Positions 2,194 to 36,021 of a stretch of DNA of 36,082 bases are shown piece after piece. Numbering within the stretch: the stretch's first letter is position 1; every line of letters begins with the position of its first letter. Under the pieces are notes generated by a model. That model had not been told where the DNA came from and did not search any database. It saw only the letters and a program-made list of their open reading frames with translations. The stretch spans positions 1-36,082 of the forward strand of contig JAABTD010000022.1 of assembly GCA_011390065.1 (NCBI GenBank), read 5' to 3'. Source of the DNA: Desulfobacteraceae bacterium. Lineage in GTDB: Bacteria > Desulfobacterota > Desulfobacteria > Desulfobacterales > JAABSP01. The position numbers and the translations under genes are program-made.

Positions 2194-4074
2194 ATGGCCA
2201 AAGAAACCAGCTACTGGGCAGACAACTACGTCGAAAAGCGGCGGGACGTCAACGACGCGATGAAAAAAATCAAAGCGGGCAAGCGAATCTTCATCGGCTC
2301 TTCCTGCGGCGAACCCCAATTCCTGGTCAAGGCGCTGTGGGAAACTTCCAACTACTTCACCGACCTGGAAATCGTTCGCCTGCTTGCCCTGGAAAGCACT
2401 CCGCTGACGCTTCTCGCCAGCAAACCCCAGGGCCGGTCCCTCAATATCCGATCCTTTTATCTGGGATCCGCCAAAGACAAACGACTGGCCGAAAACATGC
2501 GGTTTATCACGCCCATAAACCTGTCGGCCATCCCCCGGCTGTTCAAGAGCCGGATGTTGCCCATCCATGTGGCCCTCATCCAAGTAACGCCGCCCGACGA
2601 CTTCGGGTGGATGAGCCTGGGGGTGTCGGTGGACATCACGCTGGCCGCGGCCCTTTCGGCGGATCTGGTCATCGCCCAGGTCAACGAAAAAATGCCCCGG
2701 GTTCTCGGACAGAGTTTTATCCACGTCAACGATATCGATGTCTTCGTTGAACACGACGAGGAGGTGTTGACCGTCCGGCCCCTGCCGGAGCTGGAATCGG
2801 CCAACGCCATCGGCCGGCTCATCGCCCGGTTCATCGAAGACGGCTCCACCATCCAAATCAGTCTCGGCGCGACCTCCCAGGCCACGCTGCTGGCCCTGTC
2901 GGACAAAAACGACCTGGGGGTCCACACCCAGTACATCACCGACGACATCATGAACCTGGTGGCCAAGGGGGTCATTACCAACTGGAAAAAGGGATTCAAC
3001 GAGGGCAAGATGGTGGCGTCCGCGGCCATGGGCAGCAGCATGCTCTACGAGTTTCTCCACGACAACCCCTCCATCGACTTCCGGCCTTCCGACTACGTCA
3101 ACGATCCGGGGATCATCGCCCAGCACAACAAAATGGTCTCCATGAACGTGGCCATGGCCATGGACCTGACCGGACAGGTGGCCTCGGACGCCCTGCCCCA
3201 CAACCATTTCTCCGGGGTCACCGGCATGCTGGATTTCGTGCGGGGATCTTCCACGGCGCCCGGCGGCAAATCCATTCTGATGATGACCGCCACCAGCGCC
3301 GACGGCCAGCACAGCCGCATCGTCCCCAGGCTCGACGACACCGCGGTGGTGGTGCCCCGGGGCGACGTCCACTACGTGATCACCGAATACGGCGCCGTCA
3401 ACCTTTTCGGCAAGAGCCTCCAGGAGCGGGCCATGGCCATGATCAGCATCGCGCATCCGGAATTCCGGGACATCCTGTTTTACAAGGCCAAGGAAATGGG
3501 GCTGTTGGGGCCGGAACGGAGTCTCAAAGAGTCGATCCACGGCATTTATCCGGCCCGCCTGGAGGAAATTCGGGAGATCGACGGCCAGGAGGTGACCATC
3601 CGTCCCATCAAACCGGTGGACGAGCGGCGGATCCAGGAGCATTTCTACACCCTGGAAAAAGACGACGTGATCTCCCGGTTTTTCCACGAAAAGACCAGTT
3701 TTCTCCGGGACGACATCGAGGACATCCTCCAGATCGACTATGTCCACGATCTGACGGTCGTGGCGCTGGTGGGGGAATTCGGCTTCGGACGGGTTGTGGG
3801 CGTGGGAGAATACCTGATCGATCCGGCCCGGAACATGGCGGAGGTGGCCTTTTCCATCAGCCGGGAGTTCCAGGGAAAAGGGCTGGGAAAGATTCTCATC
3901 AAAAAGCTGGCCGAAGCGGCGCGGGAAAACGGCATCGCCGGGCTGATGGCCTATACGTCGCCGGAGAACCAGGGGATGGTCCAACTCTTCAAAACCCTCC
4001 CTTACAAGGTCAACACCGCCTTTGACGAGGACATGATTGTGTTGAATTGCCGGTTTGACGAGCCGGTGGATTAA
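2194..4074 (+). CDS. acetyl-CoA hydrolase/transferase family protein fused to a C-terminal GNAT acetyltransferase domain
   Basis: 626 residues. The N-terminal part (about 10-465) is a class I CoA-transferase of the acetyl-CoA hydrolase/4-hydroxybutyrate CoA-transferase family, which moves CoA between carboxylic acids. Recognisable stretches are DLTGQVASD, HSRIVPRLD, GDVHYVITEYG and IAHPEFRDILF. The C-terminal part (about 470-620) is a GNAT domain with the acetyl-CoA-binding motif Q560-G-K-G563-L-G565, resembling the GNAT domain of protein lysine acetyltransferases. In the family the catalytic Glu lies in a G-[IV]-H-T-E motif; here the motif reads GVHTQ, with Gln at residue 246 (codon CAG at 2929-2931). 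CoA transfer by the usual glutamyl-CoA intermediate is therefore doubtful. An AAGGA ribosome site lies just before the ATG. The fusion architecture is known from sulfate reducers; the exact substrate cannot be read. Confidence 0.87.
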   Translation: MAKETSYWADNYVEKRRDVNDAMKKIKAGKRIFIGSSCGEPQFLVKALWETSNYFTDLEIVRLLALESTPLTLLASKPQGRSLNIRSFYLGSAKDKRLAENMRFITPINLSAIPRLFKSRMLPIHVALIQVTPPDDFGWMSLGVSVDITLAAALSADLVIAQVNEKMPRVLGQSFIHVNDIDVFVEHDEEVLTVRPLPELESANAIGRLIARFIEDGSTIQISLGATSQATLLALSDKNDLGVHTQYITDDIMNLVAKGVITNWKKGFNEGKMVASAAMGSSMLYEFLHDNPSIDFRPSDYVNDPGIIAQHNKMVSMNVAMAMDLTGQVASDALPHNHFSGVTGMLDFVRGSSTAPGGKSILMMTATSADGQHSRIVPRLDDTAVVVPRGDVHYVITEYGAVNLFGKSLQERAMAMISIAHPEFRDILFYKAKEMGLLGPERSLKESIHGIYPARLEEIREIDGQEVTIRPIKPVDERRIQEHFYTLEKDDVISRFFHEKTSFLRDDIEDILQIDYVHDLTVVALVGEFGFGRVVGVGEYLIDPARNMAEVAFSISREFQGKGLGKILIKKLAEAARENGIAGLMAYTSPENQGMVQLFKTLPYKVNTAFDEDMIVLNCRFDEPVD

Positions 4075-19269: not shown

Positions 19270-22200
19270 ATGTCCCAACCCCGCACCGATTTTGTCCACC
19301 TCCACGTCCATACCCAGTACAGCCTTCTGGACGGGGCCATCCGCCTCGATCCCCTGATCCAACGGGCCCAGGAGTTCGGCATGACGGCCGTCGCCATGAC
19401 CGACCACGGCACCATGTTCGGCGCCGTGGAGTTCTACGAAAAGGCCACCAAGGCCGGGCTTAAACCCATTATCGGATGCGAGTGCTATCTTGCCCCCAGA
19501 AAACTCACGGACAAAACCTCGGCCGACGCCAAAGGCCTTTCCCACCTGGTGCTGCTGGCGGAAAATCAGGAGGGCTACCGGAACCTCTGCGCCTTGGCGT
19601 CTCTGGCCCAGCTCAAGGGGTTCTATTACAAACCCCGGATCGACAAAGAGGTTCTCAAGGCCCACAGCAAGGGTCTCATCGGGCTTTCCGCCTGCCTTCA
19701 GGGCGAAATCCCCAAGCTGCTCAAGCACGGCAGGACCCACGAGGCCGATGATGCGGCCCGCTTCTATCTGGAGACCTTCGGTGAAAACAATTTTTTCCTG
19801 GAGGTCCAGAACAACGGCTTGGAAGAACAGGAAATCGTCAACGCTCAGTTGCTGGAGATGAGCCGGCGCCTGTCCATCCCCCTGGTCGCCACCAACGACT
19901 GCCACTACCTTGACAAAGAAGACGTTCGGGCTCACGAGGTGCTGCTGTGCATCCAGACCGGCAAGACGGTCAAGGACGCCGACCGGTTCCAGTTCAACAC
20001 CGACCAGCTCTACTTCAAGCCGCCCCAGGTGATGGAAACGGATTTCACCGACTTTCCCGGCGCCCTGGAAAATACCGGAAAGGTTGCTGAGCGCTGCCAC
20101 ATCGAATTCGACTTCAACACCTACCATTTTCCTCAGTTCGACGCCGAGCAGAGCGCAGACATCCTTTTCGACGAGAAGGTCCGGGAAGGATACGGACGGG
20201 TCATGGAGAAAGTCCGGTCCCGCCATCCGGGGCTGGATGAAACGGTCTATGACAAGCGGCTGGACTACGAGATGTCCGTCATCAAGGATATGGGGTTTCC
20301 GGGATACTTTCTCATCGTGGCGGATTTCATCGCCTACGCCAAGGAAAACGACATCCCCGTGGGCCCCGGACGGGGATCGGCTGCCGGCAGCCTGGTGGCC
20401 TATTCCCTGGGGATCACCGATTTGGATCCCATCGAACACGGTCTGATCTTCGAAAGATTTCTGAATCCGGCCCGAATCTCCATGCCGGATATCGACGTGG
20501 ATTTCTGCATCAACGGCCGGGAGCAGGTCTTCAAATACGTCGTAGAACGATACGGCGGGGGTGATTATGTAGCCCAGATTATCACCTTCGGAAAACTCAA
20601 GAGCCGGGCGGTGATCCGGGACGTGGGCCGGGCTTTGGACATCCCCCTCAAAGAGGTGGACATCATCGCCAAGATGGTGCCGGACGTCATCAACATCAAG
20701 TTGGACGACGCCCTGAAACAGGAGCCCAAGCTGCGGGAGATGGCGGAAAGCCGGGAGGACGTGGCCGAGTTGATCCGCATCGCCCGGACCCTGGAGGGAC
20801 TGCCCCGCCATGCCTCCACTCACGCCGCCGGGGTGGTTATCGGGGACCGGCCTCTGGTGGAGTATCTGCCGTTATACCGGGGGAAAAAAGACGAAGTCGT
20901 CACCCAGCTCGACATGAAGCGGGTGGAGCAGATCGGCCTGGTCAAGTTCGACTTTCTGGGACTGCGGAACTTGACGGTGATCCAGAATACCCTTCGGTTG
21001 ATCGAAGAAGGCGGCAAGACCCCGCCTGACCTGTCGGACCTGAATATGGATGATGCGGACACCTACCGGCTGCTCTGCGCCGGCGACACCACGGGCGTCT
21101 TCCAGCTGGAAAGCTCCGGCATGAAGGACCTCCTGACCCGGCTGAAGCCGGCCTGCTTCGACGACGTCATCGCCCTGGTGGCCCTCTATCGCCCCGGCCC
21201 CCTGGACAGCGGCATGGTGGAGGACTTCGTGGAGCGGAAGCACGGCCGGAAAAAGGTGGCGTACCTGACGCCCGAGCTGGAACCGATTCTTAAAGAGACC
21301 TATGGCGTCATCGTTTACCAGGAACAGGTCATGAAGATCGCCGGCGAGCTGGCCAGCTACTCCATGGCCGAAGCCGACGGATTGCGCAAGGCCATGGGCA
21401 AAAAAATCGTCGCCATCATGGCCGAACACCGGGAGCGCTTCGTCAAAGGAGCCGTTGAAAACAGCATCCCCGAAAAAACAGCCGTCCAGATCTTCGATCT
21501 CATGGAAAAATTCGGCGGCTACGGTTTCAACAAGTCCCACAGCGCAGCTTACGCTCTCATCGCCTACCAGACCGCCTATCTCAAGGCCCATTTCCCGGTG
21601 GCGTTCATGGCCTCGCTGCTCACCAGCGAAATGCACGCCATCGACGGCGTGGTCAAGTTCATCGCCGAATGCCGGAGCCACAACATTTCGGTGCTGCCGC
21701 CGGACGTCAACGAAAGCGTCACCGCCTTCACTGTGGCGGAGGACCAGATCCGCTTCGGCCTGGCGGCGGTCAAAAACGTGGGCGAAGGCGCCATCGAGGC
21801 CATCATCGCGGCCAGGGGAGATCAGCCCTTCACCTCCATCTTCGACTTTTGCGAACGGGTGGACCTCCGAAAGGTCAACAAACGGGTGCTGGAGAGTTTG
21901 ATCCGATGCGGAGCCTTCGACGCCACCCAGGCCCGCCGGGCCCAGATGATCGCCGTCATGGAAGAGGCCCTCGATTACGGGCAGCGGGCTCAGAAGGAGC
22001 GTTCCGATCCCCAGATGGGACTGTTCGACATGACCGAGACGGCCCAGCCCCTCAACCCCCCTACGCTTCCTCGACTGGAAGAATACGAGGATCATGAGCT
22101 TCTGGCCATGGAGAAGGAATCCCTTGGTTTCTACATCACCGGGCACCCCCTGAAAAAATACGAAACGATCCTCAATCGGTTCTGCGACGCCGACACCCTC

Positions 22201-22815
22201 TCTCTAAAGGAAAAGACCGACGGGTCGGCGGTCCGCATCGGGGCCGTTATCACCGCCGTCAAAACCATCCGGACCAAGCGGGGCGACCCCATGGCCTTCG
22301 TCACCCTGGAAGATATGCGGGGTACGATTGAAATAACTGTATTTTCTGAACTTTACGAAGCCGTTGCCGACCTTCTGGGGGAGGAACAGCCCGTGATGGT
22401 GGAAGGTCAGCTCCAGCGGGATGAGAGTTCGGTCAAACTTCTGGCGGATAAAATCATCCCCATCGAAAAAGCCGAAGAGACCTGGACCCAGCAGGTGACC
22501 ATCCAGCTGGACATGACTCGGACCGACCGGGACAAACTGGAAAAGCTGCTGGAGATCCTTAAACGTCACCCCGGTTCCAGCCCCGCCGTCATCGGCCTCT
22601 TCAACCCCGGCGTGAGCAAGACCCGCATCGCCGTAGCTGAGGATATTCGACTCGCCGCAGGCCCGCCTCTCCGCGAAGCGGTGCGGGGCCTGGTGGGCTA
22701 CGATGCCGTGGAGATCGAGAGCAAGCCGCCGCAAATGGCCGCAAACGGAAATGGACAGTGGCGCAAAGGCGCAAAGGGACAACTGCGCAGAGGGGCCGGA
22801 AAGGAGGCCCCATGA
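19270..22815 (+). CDS. dnaE: DNA polymerase III, alpha subunit
   Basis: 1181 residues, the DnaE1 size. The replicative polymerase. Order: N-terminal PHP domain (HLHVHTQYSLLDG, about 9-21; MTDHGTMFGAVEFY), polymerase core with catalytic D409 and D411 in PDIDVDFC and D561 in VKFDFLGLR, the GPGRGSAAGSLVAYSLGI and HASTHAAGVVI motifs, helix-hairpin-helix region (about 860), and a C-terminal OB fold (about 985-1060). The beta-clamp-binding motif is probably QMGLFD near residue 917. The extreme C-terminus is low in complexity (GNGQWRKGAKGQLRRGAG). The stop codon overlaps the coaE start (ATGA). Confidence 0.97.
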   Translation: MSQPRTDFVHLHVHTQYSLLDGAIRLDPLIQRAQEFGMTAVAMTDHGTMFGAVEFYEKATKAGLKPIIGCECYLAPRKLTDKTSADAKGLSHLVLLAENQEGYRNLCALASLAQLKGFYYKPRIDKEVLKAHSKGLIGLSACLQGEIPKLLKHGRTHEADDAARFYLETFGENNFFLEVQNNGLEEQEIVNAQLLEMSRRLSIPLVATNDCHYLDKEDVRAHEVLLCIQTGKTVKDADRFQFNTDQLYFKPPQVMETDFTDFPGALENTGKVAERCHIEFDFNTYHFPQFDAEQSADILFDEKVREGYGRVMEKVRSRHPGLDETVYDKRLDYEMSVIKDMGFPGYFLIVADFIAYAKENDIPVGPGRGSAAGSLVAYSLGITDLDPIEHGLIFERFLNPARISMPDIDVDFCINGREQVFKYVVERYGGGDYVAQIITFGKLKSRAVIRDVGRALDIPLKEVDIIAKMVPDVINIKLDDALKQEPKLREMAESREDVAELIRIARTLEGLPRHASTHAAGVVIGDRPLVEYLPLYRGKKDEVVTQLDMKRVEQIGLVKFDFLGLRNLTVIQNTLRLIEEGGKTPPDLSDLNMDDADTYRLLCAGDTTGVFQLESSGMKDLLTRLKPACFDDVIALVALYRPGPLDSGMVEDFVERKHGRKKVAYLTPELEPILKETYGVIVYQEQVMKIAGELASYSMAEADGLRKAMGKKIVAIMAEHRERFVKGAVENSIPEKTAVQIFDLMEKFGGYGFNKSHSAAYALIAYQTAYLKAHFPVAFMASLLTSEMHAIDGVVKFIAECRSHNISVLPPDVNESVTAFTVAEDQIRFGLAAVKNVGEGAIEAIIAARGDQPFTSIFDFCERVDLRKVNKRVLESLIRCGAFDATQARRAQMIAVMEEALDYGQRAQKERSDPQMGLFDMTETAQPLNPPTLPRLEEYEDHELLAMEKESLGFYITGHPLKKYETILNRFCDADTLSLKEKTDGSAVRIGAVITAVKTIRTKRGDPMAFVTLEDMRGTIEITVFSELYEAVADLLGEEQPVMVEGQLQRDESSVKLLADKIIPIEKAEETWTQQVTIQLDMTRTDRDKLEKLLEILKRHPGSSPAVIGLFNPGVSKTRIAVAEDIRLAAGPPLREAVRGLVGYDAVEIESKPPQMAANGNGQWRKGAKGQLRRGAGKEAP

Positions 22816-23414
22816 TTACAGCCGGGCTGACGGGGGGGATCGCCACAGGGAAATCGACCGTCTCCGGATTTCTGGCCGAGGCCGGGGCGGCCGTTGTGGA
22901 CGCCGACAAGATCGCCCGGGAAGTCGTCAAGCAGCAAAAACCCGCCTGGCGAGCGGTGGTGGATCACTTCGGAGAGGAGATCCTGGCGCCCGACGGCGAG
23001 ATCGACCGGCAGCGGTTGGGCGATATCATCTTTCGATCTCCCGAGGAAAAAGAAACCCTCAACCGGATCATCCACCCCTATGTATTCCAGGAGATGACGG
23101 CGGCTGAATCGGCCATCAGAAAAAAACGTCCCGATGCCGTGATCATCCTCGACGTCCCCCTGCTCTTTGAAGTGGGCATGGACGCAAGGCTGGCGGAAGT
23201 CATCCTGGTGTACGCGCCGGAACGACGCCAGATTGAGCGTCTCATGGCCAGAAACGCCCTGGCCCAAGAAAACGCCCTGGCCCGAGTCCGATCTCAGATG
23301 AACATCGAGGAAAAAAGAGACCGCGCCACGGTCGTTATCGACAACAGCTACGATCTGGAAAGAACCCGGAAGCGGACCCTGGAAGTCTATCGGTATCTGA
23401 AAAATAAATCCTAG
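22812..23414 (+). CDS. coaE: dephospho-CoA kinase
   Basis: 200 residues, normal size. It performs the last step of coenzyme A synthesis, phosphorylating the 3' hydroxyl of dephospho-CoA. The P-loop GLTGGIATGKST lies at about 5-16, DADKIAREVV at about 32-41, the IIHPYVF stretch near 92, DVPLLFE near 115-121, and the LID arginines in ERRQIERLMARN. ATG 22812 overlaps the dnaE stop codon and is preceded by GGAGG, so translation is coupled. Confidence 0.94.
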   Translation: MITAGLTGGIATGKSTVSGFLAEAGAAVVDADKIAREVVKQQKPAWRAVVDHFGEEILAPDGEIDRQRLGDIIFRSPEEKETLNRIIHPYVFQEMTAAESAIRKKRPDAVIILDVPLLFEVGMDARLAEVILVYAPERRQIERLMARNALAQENALARVRSQMNIEEKRDRATVVIDNSYDLERTRKRTLEVYRYLKNKS

Positions 23415-23437
23415 GTGCGAAAAACTTTCCGCTCCTA
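23412..23437. repeat. imperfect hairpin between convergent coaE and RNase genes
   Basis: The arms 23412-23423 and 23426-23437 pair at 10 of 12 positions around a two-base loop. It covers both stop codons and probably serves the convergent gene ends. Its sequence (TAGGTGCGAAAA/CTTTCCGCTCCTA) resembles a diverged copy of the perfect hairpin at 32724-32750, so the two may belong to one dispersed intergenic repeat family. Confidence 0.6.
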
Positions 23438-25429
23438 AGCCGCAAACACCGACAACACATCCCTCCTCGCATCCACATGCTGCAGCGTCACCTGGGTCAC
23501 ATCCTCCGGTTTCAGGGCGAGGCCGGAGGAGAAGGGGATGGTGCATTCGATCATGTATTCGGGCAACAGGGCCAGATAGTCGTTTTTCCGGCGGGCCAGG
23601 ACCAGGGCCTCTTCCTTGCTCCCCACCTTCCCCTCCAGATATTTGAGAAGCCAGTACCGCTTCCGTCGGAACTGGAGCCGGGAAACCGCGGTCATTGGCT
23701 GTTCCAGGGCGGCGATGGCCAGGGCCACTTCCTCCTGGGTGTGAGGCGTTTCCAGCCCGAAGGCCGAGCGGATCTGACGTTGAGTGATGAGGTCGAAATA
23801 TTTCCGAATGGGCGAGGTGGCCGTCACATAAGCATCAACGCCCAGCCCTGAATGGCGCTCGGGATGGGGGCTGAGCACAAAGCGACTGAGATGCTTTCGC
23901 TGCATCCAATTCTGGAACAGCGTTCCTTCAGTGTCCTTGTACAGGCGTTCCCGAGGGGGCGGCTGGGACCGGAAGACGGCGGGGATCTCCTTTTCGGTCA
24001 GGAACCGCGCCATAAGGGCGTTGGCCATAATCATGATCTCTGACACCAGCAGCCGGCCGGGACTCTCCCGGTTAGTGCGGCTGACTTCAGGGGTTCCATC
24101 CTCCCCCAGCCAGATATTGAGTTCCGGCAGGGAAATCTGAACGGCGCCTTCCACCAGTCGCTGCTGGCGATATTTCCGGGCGATGTCGTGGAGGAGGATG
24201 ATGTCCGGATTGCCGTCGGCCATCATATTGACATCGAAATAGGAGAGTTGATGGGCGACGCGGACGATGCTGGGGGCAATCTCGTAATCGAGGACGGCCG
24301 CCTCCCGGTTGAGGCGGATCAGGATGCTGATGGCCGGCCGCAACTCTCCCGCCTTGAGGCTGCACATATCCTCGGCCAGGGTCTGGGGCAGCATGGGGAT
24401 CTTCTGGTCGGGCATATATATGGAGCTGGCTCTTGCGATGGCTTCCCGGTCGATGGGATCGTTGTGCTTGATGAAAGAACTCACATCGGCAATGTGAACC
24501 CCCAGTTCGCAATAATCCCCCATGTTCCGGATGCTGAGAGCGTCGTCGTAATCGAGGGTGTACTGACCGTCGATGGTCATCAGCTCCAGACCGGTCAGAT
24601 CCCGGCGCCCCCCGTCCAGGGAGGCCTTCGAAAGGGACCGGATCAGATCGGCGGTCCTGTCCATGACGACGTCTGAAAAATCGACCTGGACGTCGAACCG
24701 ATACAATTCGATATTCTCATCCGGTCGCCATACCCCCAACCGGACCAGCAACTGGAACAGGGGATGGCCGACCTCCACGCCGGCCCGGGCCAGCAAGGCC
24801 TTTCCCAGGTCCCAGTGGGGGCTTTCTTTTTCCAAAAGGTAGATGGAACGGAGGATCTCCGCCCATTGGGCCTGCTCAAGCGACAGCGCATCGGGCGGGG
24901 CGGTCTCTCCCTTCAGAACGCTTTGAAGCCAGTCGCCGCCGGCTTCGATGGTCCGCTGTCTGCGGGCGGCTTCCCGCTCCTGGGCCAGAATCTGCGCCAC
25001 CTGTTCCGGCGTGTGGGGAAAATATCGGTCGCTGTTGAACTTGAAATAAACCCGGTTTTCGAAGAATGCGCGGACGACGGCGGAACGGTGGTCGTCGTCG
25101 ATCTTCTCCGGAAAGCAGAATTCAGTCATTGTGTCCAGATCGATCCACTCCTGTTCCTCATGGAGGACCTCCCACAACTCCTCGATGTCCACCACCCCGG
25201 CCAATTGCCGCCGCCTTTCAGCCGACTCCTTGAGGACGTTGGTCTGCGCGATGCGGCCGGCAGCGAGATCCAGAGACGCCTCCGGCAGATATAGAAGCCG
25301 GTTCGCGCCCAGTTTCACCTCTCGATTATTTTCAGTGAGCAGCCGAAGGCGCTGGTTTTTCACCTCCAGGACCATGGCGCACATGATCCGCTGGCGGTCG
25401 ATATATTCCACAATCATTCCGGGTTCCAT
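23435..25429 (-). CDS. RNase II/R family 3'-5' exoribonuclease (RNB domain)
   Basis: 664 residues. A processive exonuclease family that degrades RNA to small products. The N-terminal half (about 1-240) is divergent. The RNB catalytic domain spans about 265-560 and keeps all four Asp ligands in the motif TIDGQYTLDYDDALS, followed by GVHIADVSSFI, YMPDQKIPMLP and DMCSLKAGELRPA. The C-terminal active-site arginine region is ATSPIRKYFDLITQRQI. A clear S1 domain at the C-terminus is not evident. It is smaller than RNase R and belongs to the divergent VacB-like RNases of deltaproteobacteria. It is convergent with coaE and divergent from the gene at 25559. Confidence 0.88.
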   Translation of the reverse strand: MEPGMIVEYIDRQRIMCAMVLEVKNQRLRLLTENNREVKLGANRLLYLPEASLDLAAGRIAQTNVLKESAERRRQLAGVVDIEELWEVLHEEQEWIDLDTMTEFCFPEKIDDDHRSAVVRAFFENRVYFKFNSDRYFPHTPEQVAQILAQEREAARRQRTIEAGGDWLQSVLKGETAPPDALSLEQAQWAEILRSIYLLEKESPHWDLGKALLARAGVEVGHPLFQLLVRLGVWRPDENIELYRFDVQVDFSDVVMDRTADLIRSLSKASLDGGRRDLTGLELMTIDGQYTLDYDDALSIRNMGDYCELGVHIADVSSFIKHNDPIDREAIARASSIYMPDQKIPMLPQTLAEDMCSLKAGELRPAISILIRLNREAAVLDYEIAPSIVRVAHQLSYFDVNMMADGNPDIILLHDIARKYRQQRLVEGAVQISLPELNIWLGEDGTPEVSRTNRESPGRLLVSEIMIMANALMARFLTEKEIPAVFRSQPPPRERLYKDTEGTLFQNWMQRKHLSRFVLSPHPERHSGLGVDAYVTATSPIRKYFDLITQRQIRSAFGLETPHTQEEVALAIAALEQPMTAVSRLQFRRKRYWLLKYLEGKVGSKEEALVLARRKNDYLALLPEYMIECTIPFSSGLALKPEDVTQVTLQHVDARRDVLSVFAA

Positions 25430-25558
25430 GGGAACCTCTCATACCAATCGGCCTTCCGAAAGTCAATGTAAGGTTGGCCGATGCGGAGAATTTCGGTAAT
25501 TTCCTACCGGAAGATAACCAGTTGCGCCCCGCGGCGATCTGTGGTAATTTTTGCAATT

Positions 25559-25891
25559 ATGAAACAATATGTCATAGATGAACTGACGCGCGACGATTAT
25601 GAAAAGCTCCGGGCTTACCTGGACGAAACCTACGGCGATTCCGGCGTGGGCGGCATTTACTGGCTCCCCCTGGCCGAAGAGATGCTCGACGGTCTCCAGA
25701 GCGCCCATGAGACCTGCAAACCCTATTATTTCGCCATTGAACTGACGCCGGATCGGTTGAGCTGCGAGCTGCTGGTGCGCACCAGTGAACGTCTCCACTG
25801 CCCCTGCATGGCCTACGCCGCCGAGGAGCAGCGGAACTGGCTCATCGCGGTTGCGGACGCCATGCTCGAAAAGCTGGGAATCCAGGTCTGA
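25559..25891 (+). CDS. small conserved hypothetical protein upstream of plsC
   Basis: 110 residues, no function recognised. ATG 25559 was chosen because the N-terminus then begins MKQYVIDELTRDDYEKLRAYL, a plausible start helix; a longer frame from 25481 runs through probable promoter sequence. The protein is acidic and soluble, with no membrane segment, and has an RLHCPCMAYA stretch near residue 80 with two close cysteines. Its TGA overlaps the plsC ATG by one base, so the two are translated together. The composition is like neighbouring genes, so it appears native. The pairing with plsC might suggest a role near lipid synthesis, but nothing in the sequence says so. Confidence 0.68.
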   Translation: MKQYVIDELTRDDYEKLRAYLDETYGDSGVGGIYWLPLAEEMLDGLQSAHETCKPYYFAIELTPDRLSCELLVRTSERLHCPCMAYAAEEQRNWLIAVADAMLEKLGIQV

Positions 25892-26604
25892 TGGCCCGAA
25901 GCTTCCTGGTCATCGGATGGACCGTCTTGAGTTCCTTCTTTCTGGGAATCATCGCGCTGGCGGTCTCTTTGACGGACAAAACCGGCAACAGCAGCCATAA
26001 GGTCGCACAGATCTGGGCGCGGTCGATTCTTCGGGTCTCCGGGGTCGGGGTCTCGGTTCGGGGGCGCCGCCATATCGATCCGGAACGTCCTATGATTTAC
26101 ATGTCCAATCACCAGAGCCTGTTCGACATCCCGGTGTTGCTGGGCCACCTGCCCGTTCAGTTCCGGTGGCTGGCAAAGGCCGAGCTGTTCCGAATTCCCA
26201 TCTTCGGTCACGCCATGCGCCGGGCCGGCTATATCAGCATCGACCGCACCGACCGAAAATCGGCCTTCGAAAGCCTGGCCCGGGCTGCGGGGATGATTCG
26301 GGACGGCGTATCGGTGCTGATCTTTCCCGAAGGAACCCGAAGCCGCAGCAATACCGTCCGCCCGTTCAAAAAAGGGGGCTTCGTCCTGGCGGTGGATTCA
26401 GGGGTGCCCGTGGCGCCGGTGATCACCCTGGGGCCCCATGAGATCATGCCCAAGGGGCAGCTGATCATCACCCCAAAAGACGTGACCGTGGAGATCCGGC
26501 CGCCCATCGATGCCGGACAGTACAGTCGCAAGACCAAGGACCGGCTGCTGGAGCGGGTCCGACGCGAAATCATCGCCGCATCCGATGGACGTCTGGAAGG
26601 ATAA
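25891..26604 (+). CDS. plsC: 1-acyl-sn-glycerol-3-phosphate acyltransferase
   Basis: 237 residues. It adds the second acyl chain to lysophosphatidic acid on the inner membrane. N-terminal hydrophobic segment at about 6-28. Acyltransferase motifs: NHQSLFD (N73-D79, the HX4D catalytic pair H74 and D79), the GYISIDRTDR stretch (113-122), FPEGTRSRS (145-153), and V-P-V-A-P-V-I near 172-178. Length matches the family. RNase J begins five bases after its stop. Confidence 0.92.
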   Translation: MARSFLVIGWTVLSSFFLGIIALAVSLTDKTGNSSHKVAQIWARSILRVSGVGVSVRGRRHIDPERPMIYMSNHQSLFDIPVLLGHLPVQFRWLAKAELFRIPIFGHAMRRAGYISIDRTDRKSAFESLARAAGMIRDGVSVLIFPEGTRSRSNTVRPFKKGGFVLAVDSGVPVAPVITLGPHEIMPKGQLIITPKDVTVEIRPPIDAGQYSRKTKDRLLERVRREIIAASDGRLEG

Positions 26605-26608
26605 GGCG

Positions 26609-28258
26609 ATGCTGAAACTCGTTGCCTTGGGGGGTCTGGGCGAAATCGGCCTCAACATGATGGCGGTCGAGTACGGCGGGACGATCATCGTGATCGACGC
26701 CGGGCTGATGTTCCCGGAAGATCATATGCTCGGGGTCGATTACGTGATCCCCGCCATGGATTATATCCGGGAGCATCGCCAGCAGGTCGCGGCCGTTCTG
26801 CTGACCCACGCCCACGAGGACCACATCGGGGCTCTCCCCTATTTCCTCCGGGAAGTCAATGCGCCGGTTTACGGCACACGGTTCACCCTGGGAATCGTCC
26901 GCCACAAGCTGGAAGAACATGGGCTGCTGTGCTCCGCCGTCCTCAACACGGTCGCTCCCGGCGACGTCCTTTCCGTGGCTCCTTTCCGGATCGAATTTAT
27001 CCGGGTCAATCACAGCGTGGTGGACGGCGTGGCGCTGTGCATCGAAACGCCTCTGGGCCGCATCATCCACACCGGGGATTTCAAGATCTCCCATACGCAC
27101 ATGTGCGGCATGACCACCGACGTCAACCGGTTCGCCCGCCTGGGGCAGGAGGGGGTGCTGGTCCTTCTGTCGGATTCCACCAACGTGGAAAAGCCCGGTT
27201 ACACCGCCTCGGACCGGGATATCGGAGAAACCCTCAGGGGGATCGTCAGCCGGAGCAGCGGCCGGGTCCTCGTAGCCCTTTTCGCCTCGAGCATCGCCCG
27301 TATCCAGCAGATTGTCGATATCGCACGGGAAACGGGTCGGAAGATCGTCGTCAACGGCCGGAGCCTCGACATCACGGTCTCCATCGCCCGGGAGTTGGGC
27401 CACCTCCGGTTCGACCCCGCCCTGGAGATCGACATCGACGAGGTCAACGACTACCCTGAAAACGAAGTGGCGATCATCACCACCGGCAGTCAGGGAGAGC
27501 CCATGTCGGCCCTTGCCCGGATGGCCTCGGGCATCCACAAGCAGATCAAGATCCGGGAAGGGGACATGGTGATCCTTTCATCCAAGTTCATTCCCGGCAA
27601 CGAAAAGGCGATTGCCAAAATCATCAACAACCTCTACCGCCGGGGGGCCGACGTGATATATGAAAAAATTTCGGAAATTCACGTCTCCGGCCACGCCTTT
27701 CAGGAAGAGCTGAAGCTGATGATCCACCTGGCCCGTCCCCGGTATTTCATCCCCATTCACGGGGAGTACCGTCATCTGGTCCTCCACGCCCGGTTGGCCC
27801 AGCGCATGGGAATCCCTTCCGCCAATGTGCTCATGGTCGAAAACGGGCAGGAAGTCCTCTTCGACGACGCGGGCGGCCGGATAGGGGAGCGGATCGCCAC
27901 CGGACGCACCCTGGTGGACGGCAAAGGGATCGGAGATGTGGGGCGTTCCATCCTCAAAGAACGGCGGGCCCTTTCCGAGGACGGGTTCGTCGCCGTCACC
28001 CTGGCCTTTGACGAGGAGACGGGAATCATCGTCTATGGGCCAGAAATCGTCTCCCGGGGGTTCGTCTTCGAGACCGAGACCGGCCATCTGCTGGACGACG
28101 CGGTCTGCGTGGTGCTGGAAGCAGTGGAGGACGTGCCGCCCGAAACCCGCAATCGGATCGAGCGGATCCGCAACCGCGTTCAGGCGGACCTGCGGCGCTA
28201 TTTCACCTTCACCATCAAACGCCGCCCCGTGATTCTGCCCTTCATCCTGGAGGTGTAG
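26609..28258 (+). CDS. rnj: ribonuclease J
   Basis: 549 residues from ATG 26609, where homology starts ([18 protein letters not shown]) and AAGG lies eight bases upstream; an ATG at 26585 is possible but overlaps plsC. RNase J is a metallo-beta-lactamase/beta-CASP enzyme with endonuclease and 5'-3' exonuclease activity in mRNA decay and rRNA processing. The zinc motif is H67-A-H69-E-D71-H72. Further metal ligands lie in HTGDFKIS. beta-CASP features are [22 protein letters not shown] and [11 protein letters not shown], and [14 protein letters not shown] precedes the ligand motif [10 protein letters not shown]. The C-terminal domain completes the usual size. RNase J coexists here with an RNase II/R protein, as in many Desulfobacterota. 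Confidence 0.94.
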
Positions 28259-28266
28259 AAGCGACC

Positions 28267-30447
28267 ATGCAGCGATCCCTGCGAAAAGACCTCATCGGGC
28301 TGTTGCTCGTTTTCGTCATCCTTTTCACCCTCGTCAGCCTGCTTTCCCACAACCCCGGCGACCCGTCGGTCCACAACGCCGCCGCCCCGGAGAAGGTCCA
28401 GAACCTCTTCGGCCTGGCAGGGGCCTATCTGTCGAGCCTGCTCATCGGACTTTTCGGGGCCGGCGCCTTCTGGATCCCGCCCCTGATTCTCCTGCTGGGC
28501 CTCCATCTGATGGGCCGGCCCCTGAAAAGCGGACTCCCGGCCCTCATCGGCGGCGGTCTTCTGCTGATCCTGGCCACCGGAACCCTGGCGGCCTTCTGGC
28601 GGGACCAGCTGCCCTTTTTCAACGGACGGATCACCGCCGGGGGCATCATCGGAATCTCCTTCAAATCGGCGCTGATCGGCGCCGTCAACCCGGTGGGGTC
28701 CACCATCATTCTGATCCTGCTGTGGATTGCGGGTCTCATGCTGGCCACGGGCTATTCCCTTGCACAGATCTGCCAAACCGGCGGAACAGCCCTGAAAAAC
28801 GCCGCCAAGAGCGCCCGGAAAGGCCAGAGCTTTTGGCAGGAACGACGGCAAAGGTCCGGGAAATCGCTGGAACAGTTCCAAACAGCCGGACCCAGGGCCG
28901 CCACGCCTCCTCCGGAAGAGACAAAACCACGCCGGTTCACCATCAAGGCCCCGGAGCTGCCGGGCCGAATCCTGACCCCCAAACCCAAGGAAATCGAATA
29001 CATCCCGGCCCGGCAGCCCGAAGCGCTTCCCGCTTCCGACTTTCTGGACGATCCTCTGGCCCGGCCCGAAGGGGTGGACGAGGCCCATCTTCAGGCCCAG
29101 TCCCGGCTCCTTGAACAGAAGCTGGAGGACTTCGGGGTCCACGGCAAGGTGACGGCGGCCACCCCCGGGCCGGTCATCACCACCTTCGAATACGTCCCGG
29201 CGCCGGGGGTCAAAATCAACAAAATCGTCAACCTCACCGACGACCTCGCCCTGGCCCTGCGGGCCCTGTCCATCCGGATTGTGGCGCCCATTCCCGGAAA
29301 AGCGGCTATCGGCATTGAGATCCCCAACGCCATCCGGGAGATCGTCCGTCTCAAGGACATCATCTGCTCCGAGGTCTTCGACAAATCCCAGTCTCCGCTG
29401 ACGCTTTGCCTGGGCAAGGACATCGTCGGCAATCCCGTGGTGGCGGATCTGGACAAAATGCCCCACCTGCTTATCGCCGGCGCCACCGGCACGGGCAAAA
29501 GCGTGGGGCTCAACGCCATGATCTGTTCGTTTCTCTACAAGGCCAACCCCGAGGAGGTGAAACTGATCATGGTCGATCCCAAACGGATCGAGTTGTCGGT
29601 TTACGACGGCATCCCCCACCTCATCACCCCGGTGGTCACCGACCCCAAAAAGGCCACCAACGCCCTTTTCTGGGCGGTCAAGGAGATGGAGCGGCGCTAC
29701 GAACGGCTGGCGGAAAAACAGGTCCGGAATATCGCTCAGTACAACCGCAAAATCGCAAAGGAGATCCCCGGCGAAGGCGAGGAACCCCCCGAGCGCCTCC
29801 CCTACATCGTGGTCATCATCGACGAACTGGCCGACCTCATGATGGTGGCCTCCCGGGACGTGGAGCTGGCCCTGACCCGTCTCGCCCAGATGGCGCGCGC
29901 TGCAGGCATCCATCTGATCCTGGCCACCCAGCGCCCCTCGGTGGACGTACTCACCGGCATCATCAAAGCGAATTTCCCCACCCGGCTCACCTTCCAGGTT
30001 TCTTCCCGGACCGACTCCCGAACCATTATCGACGCCAATGGGGCCGAGAGCCTCCTGGGCAACGGCGATTTACTGTTCCTTCCCCCGGGAACGGCCAAAC
30101 TTCAGCGGATCCACGGCCCCTACATCTCCGATGAAGAAGTGACCCGGATCACCCGGTTCTTGCGCGAACAGCAGCGACCGGACTACGACCCGTCGGTCGT
30201 GGAAACGCCTGCCAAGGGGGCGGATGCCCCGGACAAGGAAGACTACGACGATCGGTACGACGATGCCGTGGCGCTGGTCACGGAAACCCGCCAGGCATCC
30301 ATCTCCATGGTTCAGCGCCACCTGCGGGTCGGTTACAACCGGGCCGCCCGAATGATCGAAATGATGGAAAAAGAAGGAATCGTGGGGCCTTCGGACGGAG
30401 TCCGCCCCCGGGAGGTGCTGGTCCGCGGATATGAAGAGGTATTGTGA
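28267..30447 (+). CDS. ftsK: DNA translocase FtsK
   Basis: 726 residues. It pumps chromosomal DNA at the septum and helps resolve dimers. The N-terminal region has four or five membrane segments (about 10-27, 44-77, 83-104 and 118-162). A short proline-rich linker follows (about 165-260), much shorter than in E. coli FtsK, more like SpoIIIE. The motor domain has Walker A G405-A-T-G-T-G-K411-S412, Walker [12 protein letters not shown], and the [19 protein letters not shown] stretch. The gamma winged-helix domain that reads KOPS-type sites is present at the C-terminus (about 660-725). The last codons overlap the methyltransferase start. Confidence 0.95.
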
Positions 30448-34009: not shown

Positions 34010-34044
34010 CTGTTCCTTTCGAATGTCCTCAGGGTTTACGATGC

Positions 34045-34091
34045 AAAAAAACGGCGGTAGAAGGGAAACCGCGTCCCCTTTTACCGCCGTT
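34045..34091 (-). terminator. rho-independent terminator of the triple-repeat membrane protein gene
   Basis: On the minus strand the ten-base arm AACGGCGGTA (34082-34091) pairs perfectly with TACCGCCGTT (34050-34059). An inner AAGGGG/CCCTT pairing extends the hairpin, and seven T follow (34045-34051, read on the minus strand). It is 47 bases past the stop codon. Confidence 0.88.
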
Positions 34092-34137: not shown

Positions 34138-35919
34138 TTATTCCGTTTCGGCGGCCTCTTCCGTTTCTGATTCAGGCGCCGCAACCGATAGAAGCTCCTT
34201 ATAAGCCGCCATCTTCTTTTCGATGATCGGTGCATGGCGGGTTCTGCCCATGTCGATCAGGTCGTTGTTGTCCATTTGAGCCGCTTTTTCCATGTACTCG
34301 ATCGCCAACTGGTAGCCCTCGGCATTGGCCTTGCTGGCCGCAACGTCCGCCATGGTCATCATGCTGAGAATTCTCATATTCTTCTGCATGGCAAAGGCGC
34401 GCTTGGCGTTCTGGGCATCGGCGTATTTCAGGGCCTCATTAATGTAATCCTGAACCTCTTCGTAGCTGGCAACACCTTGGGAATAGAGCAGATCGTTGGC
34501 TTTATCCATATAATAATGGAAGGCGATGGGCATGACCTGTTCTCTGGCGAACACCCCTTGGATCGACTCCGGCGCTTCCACCCCCGACAACCGCACCACG
34601 CGTTCTTCGCCCAGAGGCGCAAAACTGCCTTTCCAGATCTCCAATGAATCGCCGGTGGAGCGGAGATAGTAGTTGGAGGCATTGGAAAAGCTGACGCCGA
34701 TCATGATGGCGAGGAGGACTATCGCACAGGCTGCCAGAAACTTCATCGAACTTTCCATGGGATCAGACCCTTTCTTCTGAGGGGATATGGGTGGGACCTG
34801 GGCTTCGGTCTTCTCTTTCTCCGACGGACCGATGGATTCCGATTCGTCTTCGGGACGGTAAACCGGATCCGGTCGGATTACCTTTCCGGCAGTCTCGCGC
34901 ACTTGCGCCGCAACCTCCGATTTGACCTCCTGAACCGCAACCTCTTCGGACGCCTTCACCTCCTCCGGCACAGTGGTCTCTGACGTCGGTACCGCAGGTT
35001 GCGGCTCAACCGCCGATGCCGCCGGCAGAGGCATGTCGGAGAGGTCGAACTGTCGGAACAACAACCCTTTGATCCGTTCGGCCTCTTCGCCGACAGCAAT
35101 GGGCGGAGCAGAAAATTCGCCCGTCGATCTTTGCGGCGGCGCATAGCGCTTTTCCGGCCGCCAGGTGTCGAACCGTCGGTGAAGCAACTCATCGATGGAT
35201 ATGGGTTCCGTTGCCGGCGTCGGCGCTTCGGATTTGGATTCGGGCGGCTGAACCGGCGCTTCGGCGGTCTCAGGGAGATCGAACCGTTTAAGCAGCAACG
35301 CTTTCACCCGGTCGGCATCCGCACCCGCGGCAATGGGCGGAGCCGGGGGCGCCTCGCTCTGTTGCGGCGGCGGCGCGAAATGCGCCGTCGGAACCCATTC
35401 ATCGAACCGGCGCGACAACAACTCCCGTATCGATACCGGTTTTTGGGTCACGGAAGCCTTTGCCGCCGTCTCCTTTTTGGGCGGTTTGGCCGGGACCTTT
35501 TTTGCCGGCGCTTTCGCCGCTGTTTTTTCCGCTGTTTTTTCCGCGGGCGCCGTCGTTTTCTTTATCGCGGGCGCCTCTTTCCCGGTCGGCTCCGTTCCGG
35601 GCTCGAACGTTTTCATCAGCAACGCCTTCACCCGGCCGGCGTTTTCCCCGGCAGCGATGGGCGGCGCGGCGGCAACCTCGACATCCGCCTTCGGCGGGGC
35701 GTAAAGGGCATCTGGCTGCCAAGCGTCGAATTTTTTCAGCAGCAGATCCTTCATGGTCGCCTTCTTTTTCACTTTTTTGGGTGGCGTTTTGCCGGCCGTC
35801 GCCTTCGAATCCGCAGCCCCTTTGGCCGTTGTGGTCTTCTTGGCCTTGGGACTGCTTTTGACTTTCGAGGCGGATTTTTTCTTGGCCGCGCCCTTCTTTT
35901 TGGAACTCGTTTTTGCCAT
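34138..35919 (-). CDS. membrane protein with histone-H1-like tail and three repeats, function unknown
   Basis: 593 residues; no family recognised. ATG 35919 was chosen because GAGGGG lies seven bases upstream; ATG 35937 would add MQRGFF. Residues 1-54 are Lys/Ala/Ser/Thr-rich with almost no acidic residues, like histone H1 or AlgP tails. Three repeats follow (about 56-106, 173-227 and 251-295), separated by Lys/Ala/Pro-rich linkers. Each starts with an [IM]-x-[ED]-L-L-x-[RK]-[RK]-F-D-x-W element, passes a YAPP/FAPP turn and an APPIAxG stretch, and ends in a [VI]-K-x-L-L-x-x-x-F-[DE] element. An acidic/proline region (300-400), one membrane segment (about 404-421) and a helical C-terminal domain (about 430-580) complete it. 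The positive tail should lie in the cytoplasm and the C-terminus in the periplasm. It is a single-gene unit between a good promoter and a strong terminator. Anchoring of DNA or RNA or of a partner protein is only inference. Confidence 0.8.
   Translation of the reverse strand: MAKTSSKKKGAAKKKSASKVKSSPKAKKTTTAKGAADSKATAGKTPPKKVKKKATMKDLLLKKFDAWQPDALYAPPKADVEVAAAPPIAAGENAGRVKALLMKTFEPGTEPTGKEAPAIKKTTAPAEKTAEKTAAKAPAKKVPAKPPKKETAAKASVTQKPVSIRELLSRRFDEWVPTAHFAPPPQQSEAPPAPPIAAGADADRVKALLLKRFDLPETAEAPVQPPESKSEAPTPATEPISIDELLHRRFDTWRPEKRYAPPQRSTGEFSAPPIAVGEEAERIKGLLFRQFDLSDMPLPAASAVEPQPAVPTSETTVPEEVKASEEVAVQEVKSEVAAQVRETAGKVIRPDPVYRPEDESESIGPSEKEKTEAQVPPISPQKKGSDPMESSMKFLAACAIVLLAIMIGVSFSNASNYYLRSTGDSLEIWKGSFAPLGEERVVRLSGVEAPESIQGVFAREQVMPIAFHYYMDKANDLLYSQGVASYEEVQDYINEALKYADAQNAKRAFAMQKNMRILSMMTMADVAASKANAEGYQLAIEYMEKAAQMDNNDLIDMGRTRHAPIIEKKMAAYKELLSVAAPESETEEAAETE
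35035..35169 (-). repeat. protein repeat 3 of the 34138-35919 gene
   Basis: Encodes residues 251-295: SIDELLHRRFDTWRPE, YAPP, APPIAVGEEAE, IKGLLFRQFDLSD. Confidence 0.8.
35239..35403 (-). repeat. protein repeat 2 of the 34138-35919 gene
   Basis: Encodes residues 173-227: SIRELLSRRFDEWVPT, FAPPP, APPIAAGADAD, VKALLLKRFDLPE. Confidence 0.8.
35602..35754 (-). repeat. protein repeat 1 of the 34138-35919 gene
   Basis: Encodes residues 56-106: MKDLLLKKFDAWQPD, YAPP, APPIAAGENAG, VKALLMKTFE. Most degenerate end (FE instead of FD). Confidence 0.8.
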
Positions 35920-35992
35920 AAAAAAACCCCTCTGCATCCTGAACTGTTAGCAATCGTAAGCGGGTCTCAGTCGATCAGATATCGCGATAATC

Positions 35993-36021
35993 AATATATA
36001 AGAACCCTTATACTTTGTAAA
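35993..36021 (-). promoter_or_regulatory. promoter for the triple-repeat membrane protein gene
   Basis: On the minus strand TTTACA (36016-36021), 17 bases, TATATT (35993-35998); five of six in each box. The predicted leader is about 65-70 bases. Confidence 0.72.

Follow-up and report, generated by a model that had tools for sequence, protein, structure and literature searches.

The attachment of the chromosome to the cell envelope is an open question beyond a few models, and almost nothing is known about it in sulfate reducers. Membrane-anchored DNA-binding proteins as a broader kind are already known. The mycobacterial Rv3852, a histone-like, nucleoid-associated protein, has a membrane anchor and a Lys/Ala-rich arm, and lacks both a large periplasmic domain and FD repeats. 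Chlamydial HC2 (PF07382) is a soluble protein. RodZ consists of a helix-turn-helix (HTH), a transmembrane (TM) segment and a periplasmic domain; its HTH is used on MreB, so that the presence of an HTH in a membrane protein does not by itself imply DNA binding. Transmembrane transcription regulators, to which the ToxR/CadC type belongs, are usually built in the same order of HTH, TM segment and periplasmic domain (PMC10269533). YfgM is described as having one membrane helix on the N-terminal side and, after it, a TPR-like domain in the periplasm (PMC9643414).

The locus compared here with these systems lies in a window of 36,082 nt, by which we mean the whole stretch of DNA that was analysed. 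A preliminary description had placed an unrecognised membrane protein at 34138-35919. These coordinates were correct; the gene is read on the minus strand, from 35919 down to 34138, and is the sole copy in its 5.04-Mb assembly. A second in-frame ATG is found at 35937. The ATG at 35919 is the likely start because a GAGGGG box is situated 7 nt before it (35932-35927). As this box lies 5' of the gene and a strong hairpin with a T7 run 3' of the stop codon (Table 1), the gene is probably transcribed alone. Comparison with a relative of 64% identity (G001, the same match that appears as L032) gave a dN/dS of 0.26 overall and of 0.22 in the tail, indicating a real gene under purifying selection.

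Table 1. Features of the gene and of the encoded protein (positions in the window)
Feature	Position	Strand	Basis or remark
Whole gene	34138..35919	minus	593 aa, single copy in genome
Ribosome-binding site GAGGGG	35927..35932	minus	7 nt before ATG at 35919; sequence
Sigma-70-like promoter match TTTACA-17-TATATT	35993..36021	minus	weak: 1 found vs 0.7 expected
Lys/Ala/Ser/Thr tail, residues 1-54, charge +19	35758..35919	minus	composition; disorder predicted in homologue L052
Repeat unit 1, residues 55-106 (LLLKKFDAWQP...APPI...RVKALLMKTFE)	35602..35757	minus	family repeat profile
Repeat unit 2, residues 163-214	35278..35433	minus	family repeat profile
Repeat unit 3, residues 241-292	35044..35199	minus	family repeat profile
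Acidic/Pro-rich linker, residues 293-386	34762..35043	minus	sequence composition
Membrane helix, residues ~387-414, ending in invariant S..N motif	34678..34761	minus	alignment and AlphaFold2
Three-stranded antiparallel sheet, residues 417-445 (YYLRSTGDSLEIWKGSFAPLGEERVVRL)	34585..34671	minus	alignment and AlphaFold2
Five-helix TPR-like periplasmic bundle, residues 459-580	34180..34545	minus	AlphaFold2, structure comparison
Strong intrinsic-terminator hairpin and T7	34043..34091	minus	3' of the gene, parts it from the M24 peptidase gene

The Lys-rich tail, the three repeats, the acidic/Pro linker and the single membrane segment noticed beforehand are all present. From its charge the protein is predicted to have a cytoplasmic N terminus and a C terminus outside. 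It shares the membrane anchor with Rv3852, as well as the junction of a Lys-rich arm to the membrane helix; the two proteins come from different phyla, and the likeness noted here is one of layout. One TM helix and a periplasmic domain are also found in the ToxR/CadC-type regulators, but the protein lacks an HTH and its periplasmic domain matches no known sensor. No named family had been assigned to it, and Pfam and NCBIfam match no part of it.

The tail comprises 20 Lys and 11 Ala and no Glu. Among 38 family members the tails have a median length of 66 aa with 37% Lys plus Arg, 2% acidic residues and a median net charge of +23. Most of the arm-bearing members start with MGKxSLxKST and continue with a Lys/Ala-rich tail; in the family the first ten residues hardly vary, and the pattern MGK.[STN]L..[SA]T fits 35 of the 44 members with a recognised start. 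When 40 relatives were searched at the DNA level for the MGKxSLxKST start, at most one site per genome was obtained, inside the target gene wherever it could be placed. The Pfam model HC2 (histone H1-like) matched 12 of 33 full-length members (best E 3.8e-23). These matches are driven by composition, low-complexity Lys/Ala-rich sequence being common to HC2 and many family members, and the protein of the window itself gave no Pfam match at E ≤ 1, HC2 included. Arm sequence and length vary widely. In some members (L169, L177 and L178) very long EEKRLADEAAKKA or AKAEAEAK runs replace the repeats and resemble single-alpha-helix rods.

The family repeat spans 55 columns (SxKELLxKKFDxWxPxxLF...APPF...RIKxLLxKKFD), in which the F is invariant and AP and L are nearly so, and occurs in one to six copies per protein. 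Its profile detects the three units far beyond chance (i-E 4.8e-21, 1.6e-18 and 2.4e-22 for units 1, 2 and 3); each unit has 52 residues, and unit 3 shares 44% identity with unit 1 and 52% with unit 2. In the 40 genomes searched the repeat was restricted to the protein of this family, and against Pfam and PDB sequences only chance-level matches were obtained. Tail and repeat are under purifying selection, and the repeat is conserved across families. In the structure predicted for a full-length homologue (L052) the tail was disordered, as had been suspected for the arm, and the repeat formed two short helices with a pLDDT of 50-73, suggesting linear docking motifs. The repeat has the look of two paired short helical motifs within a disordered arm, not of a folded domain. 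It had been announced as a new repeat; its conservation in homologues bears this out, but as a motif pair rather than as a folded repeat domain. The possibility that the repeat is a decayed HTH was rejected (hhalign 1.5%). Genes that appeared to be split (L095; G035, G003 and G026) were interrupted by an assembly N-gap or by contig ends, so that no natural fission was found.

For the periplasmic domain, AlphaFold2 on 30 sequences gave a TM helix, a three-stranded sheet and five helices with a pLDDT of 90.9, and in the full-length homologue this domain was mostly above 90. The preliminary description had recognised the helical part, but had overlooked the sheet. Invariant in the family alignment are an S and an N where the TM helix ends, together with the G, F and P of a WxGxFxP turn. 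Of the kinds of search that it had proposed, profile searches returned no family and Foldseek returned nothing at E < 0.001: the domain is absent from Pfam and NCBIfam, and sequence searches of these databases and of the PDB gave chance-level matches only. VIA-align found many TPR-like and MIT-like bundle chains at Z 8-10, covering the helices alone; such non-specific matches are to be expected from helical bundles and are not diagnostic. Altogether no full-length match to a characterised family was obtained and homologues with conserved repeats were found, the two points on which the preliminary description had been made to depend.

The family is single-copy and widespread in the Desulfobacterales, with very few occurrences in the rest of the phylum. 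It was present in 46 of 58 relatives and in 164 of the 241 genomes of the class, every match listed being from the Desulfobacterales. A phylum-wide sample contained 15 matching genomes, 11 of them from this order, and clear matches outside it in two genomes only. Scanning 84,980 species genomes with a short motif yielded 80 loci, whose titles name Desulfobacterales and their kin or unplaced deltaproteobacteria and proteobacteria. A literature search found no description of the family. The protein belongs to a real, selected and previously unnamed family of inner-membrane proteins.

Not all members carry the arm. According to the tree, repeated loss of the arm left the periplasmic domain in place, and members with the TM helix and periplasmic domain only occur in no fewer than two well-supported clades, Desulfaltia and its kin being one. 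The armless version in Candidatus Desulfaltia and kin (L043, L046, L049, L055 and L065) has about 205 aa, and a repeat search of a Desulfaltia genome (G025) found none. Consequently, the periplasmic side forms the core, to which only some lineages add the arm, and neither the cationic arm nor any DNA tethering by it can be the universal core of the function.

An HTH replaces the tail and the repeats in L124 and L125, two distant homologues that come from two other lineages within the phylum. HTH_23 scored 34.9 and 47.6 bits in these proteins, compared with a Pfam gathering cut-off of 24.6, whereas the protein of the window has no sequence-specific DNA-binding domain in Pfam. The TM helix and periplasmic domain of the family align with those of the HTH-headed proteins over 184 columns (hhalign 99.6%, E 9.4e-24), and a reverse search from L125 recovered the target gene at E 6.4e-15. 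The HTH form was present in 12 of the 13 genomes of one other order. The HTH is the best-conserved stretch of these proteins, with a mean identity of 0.81-0.91 as against 0.2-0.6 in the linker. L124 combines the HTH with the N terminus MGKKILFEST, which resembles the family start; this MGKKxLxxST start may link the HTH form and the arm form. In the periplasmic-domain tree the HTH proteins split off on one branch (SH-aLRT 93), a split to be taken with caution since two long branches meet at this point. Two genomes of the order of G364 (G570 and G565) have shorter second copies in frames of 214 and 234 aa; the match begins past the HTH region, and these copies probably have no HTH. The HTH cousins have the cytosolic HTH, the one TM helix and the periplasmic domain of the ToxR/CadC type, and the layout of RodZ. 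However, neither they nor the protein of the window match HTH_25 or DUF4115, the Pfam models for RodZ. The periplasmic fold of RodZ also differs from that of the family.

We tentatively favour the reading that the protein is a membrane-anchored nucleic-acid tether, most likely for chromosomal DNA. The periplasmic domain and the one membrane helix would hold the long disordered cytosolic arm, and the folded domain with its sheet and TPR-like helices would be expected to bind an envelope partner. The Lys-rich, H1-like tail would bind nucleic acid, presumably DNA, without sequence specificity, and the repeated paired motif (LLxKKFDxWxP ... APPF ... RIKxLLxKKFD) could offer a multivalent docking site for a cytosolic partner. 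The related proteins would serve this purpose with a sequence-specific HTH where the family has tail and repeats. What this reading takes from direct results is the anatomy, the conservation, the repeat in one protein per genome, the predicted disorder and the homology to the HTH-bearing cousins. A cationic cytosolic tether had already been suggested in the preliminary description; the cousins independently favour a role with DNA or another polyanion, but the arm is missing in several lineages, which retain the TM helix and periplasmic domain alone. The compositional nature of the HC2 matches also speaks against tethering. The evolutionary history is best read as an exchange of the cytosolic nucleic-acid module, in which the HTH would have given way to an H1-like arm with docking repeats on what may be a tether or an envelope sensor. 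For an HTH and a histone-like arm to replace one another on one and the same periplasmic domain is unusual in evolution. It is conceivable, if rather doubtful, that the whole forms a new trans-envelope system in which two or more lineages use the one conserved periplasmic domain to dock interchangeable cytosolic nucleic-acid modules, either an HTH or an H1-like arm with multivalent FD repeats, and which in Desulfobacterales fastens the nucleoid physically to the envelope. If the tether reading is true, the chromosome may be attached to the envelope through this protein; present once each in most of the sampled Desulfobacterales genomes and equipped with a private multivalent motif, the family is a concrete, testable candidate for chromosome-envelope attachment.

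RNA, ribosomes, polyphosphate or acidic lipid would be equally plausible ligands of a Lys-rich arm. Binding to rRNA or ribosomes is reported for the basic repeats of eukaryotic p180 and for the basic tail of YidC2, and the arm might act likewise, with the TPR-like periplasmic domain as a YfgM-like chaperone at the exit of the Sec channel. We regard such a ribosome or translocon tether as unlikely on balance. Its layout of a single TM helix and TPR-like helices would be that of the Thermotoga TM1634 soluble domain and of YfgM (PMC9643414 for the latter), and the armless members would remain periplasmic chaperones. PpiD-YfgM does appear in the Foldseek list (rank 45, E 0.8) and TPR-like chains appear in VIA-align, both weak matches and the latter non-specific. 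Neither YfgM nor TM1634 matches in sequence, however, and the family has its sheet between membrane and helices. TPR_21 (PF09976), the YfgM model, is absent from the Pfam matches of the 220-aa domain and from the 25 families shown for 30 members, and the HTH heads of the cousins would be left unexplained.

The cousins might instead be one-component transmembrane transcription regulators like ToxR and CadC; the shared layout (PMC10269533) and the strong conservation of their HTH would agree with this. The Desulfobacterales form would then be a derivative exerting global regulation through its H1-like arm. We regard this reading as quite unlikely, the protein of the window being without a sequence-specific DNA-binding domain and its gene without an adjoining conserved target operon.

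The gene neighbours, whose inspection had likewise been proposed, are recurrent in part. Of 81 loci, 72 of them with enough sequence, 39 have an Opp/Dpp-type gene no more than 1.6 kb downstream. The importers that occupy this site are oligopeptide ABC transporters of two very dissimilar kinds (L038-L108; median OppB identity between the arrangements 31%). An accessory or regulator of the importer, whose periplasmic domain senses peptide or the binding protein, would fit this. We consider it very unlikely, because 21 of the 39 importers are convergent, the rest being on the same strand, and terminators often intervene; an operon with opp as a general rule was rejected, since the convergent cases form no operon. 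Opp is also absent beside the target gene and in 28 other loci, and the HTH cousin L125 adjoins polA, rRNA-processing and rng-like genes instead (names from sequence reading). A structural envelope protein, whose arm is a flexible spacer or an electrostatic membrane clamp and whose function is all periplasmic, would agree with the repeated loss and high variability of the arm, but is highly improbable given the purifying selection on tail and repeats, the conservation of the repeat across families and the nearly fixed N terminus.

Upstream, a divergent gene for a LarE-type sulfur transferase is frequent (29 of the 59 loci with enough upstream sequence, L037-L110), and pyrG and eno often lie beyond it. 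In the window an M24 peptidase gene is found 129 nt downstream of the target gene, followed by S9 and L13 on the opposite strand; some relatives have the order target-Opp-M24-S9, whereas the window has target-M24-S9-L13 without an importer. Elsewhere in the window, an acetyl-CoA hydrolase/transferase is fused to a GNAT acetyltransferase domain (2194-4074), and the genes for the DNA polymerase III alpha subunit, RNase J and FtsK (19270-30447) mark ordinary core chromosome.
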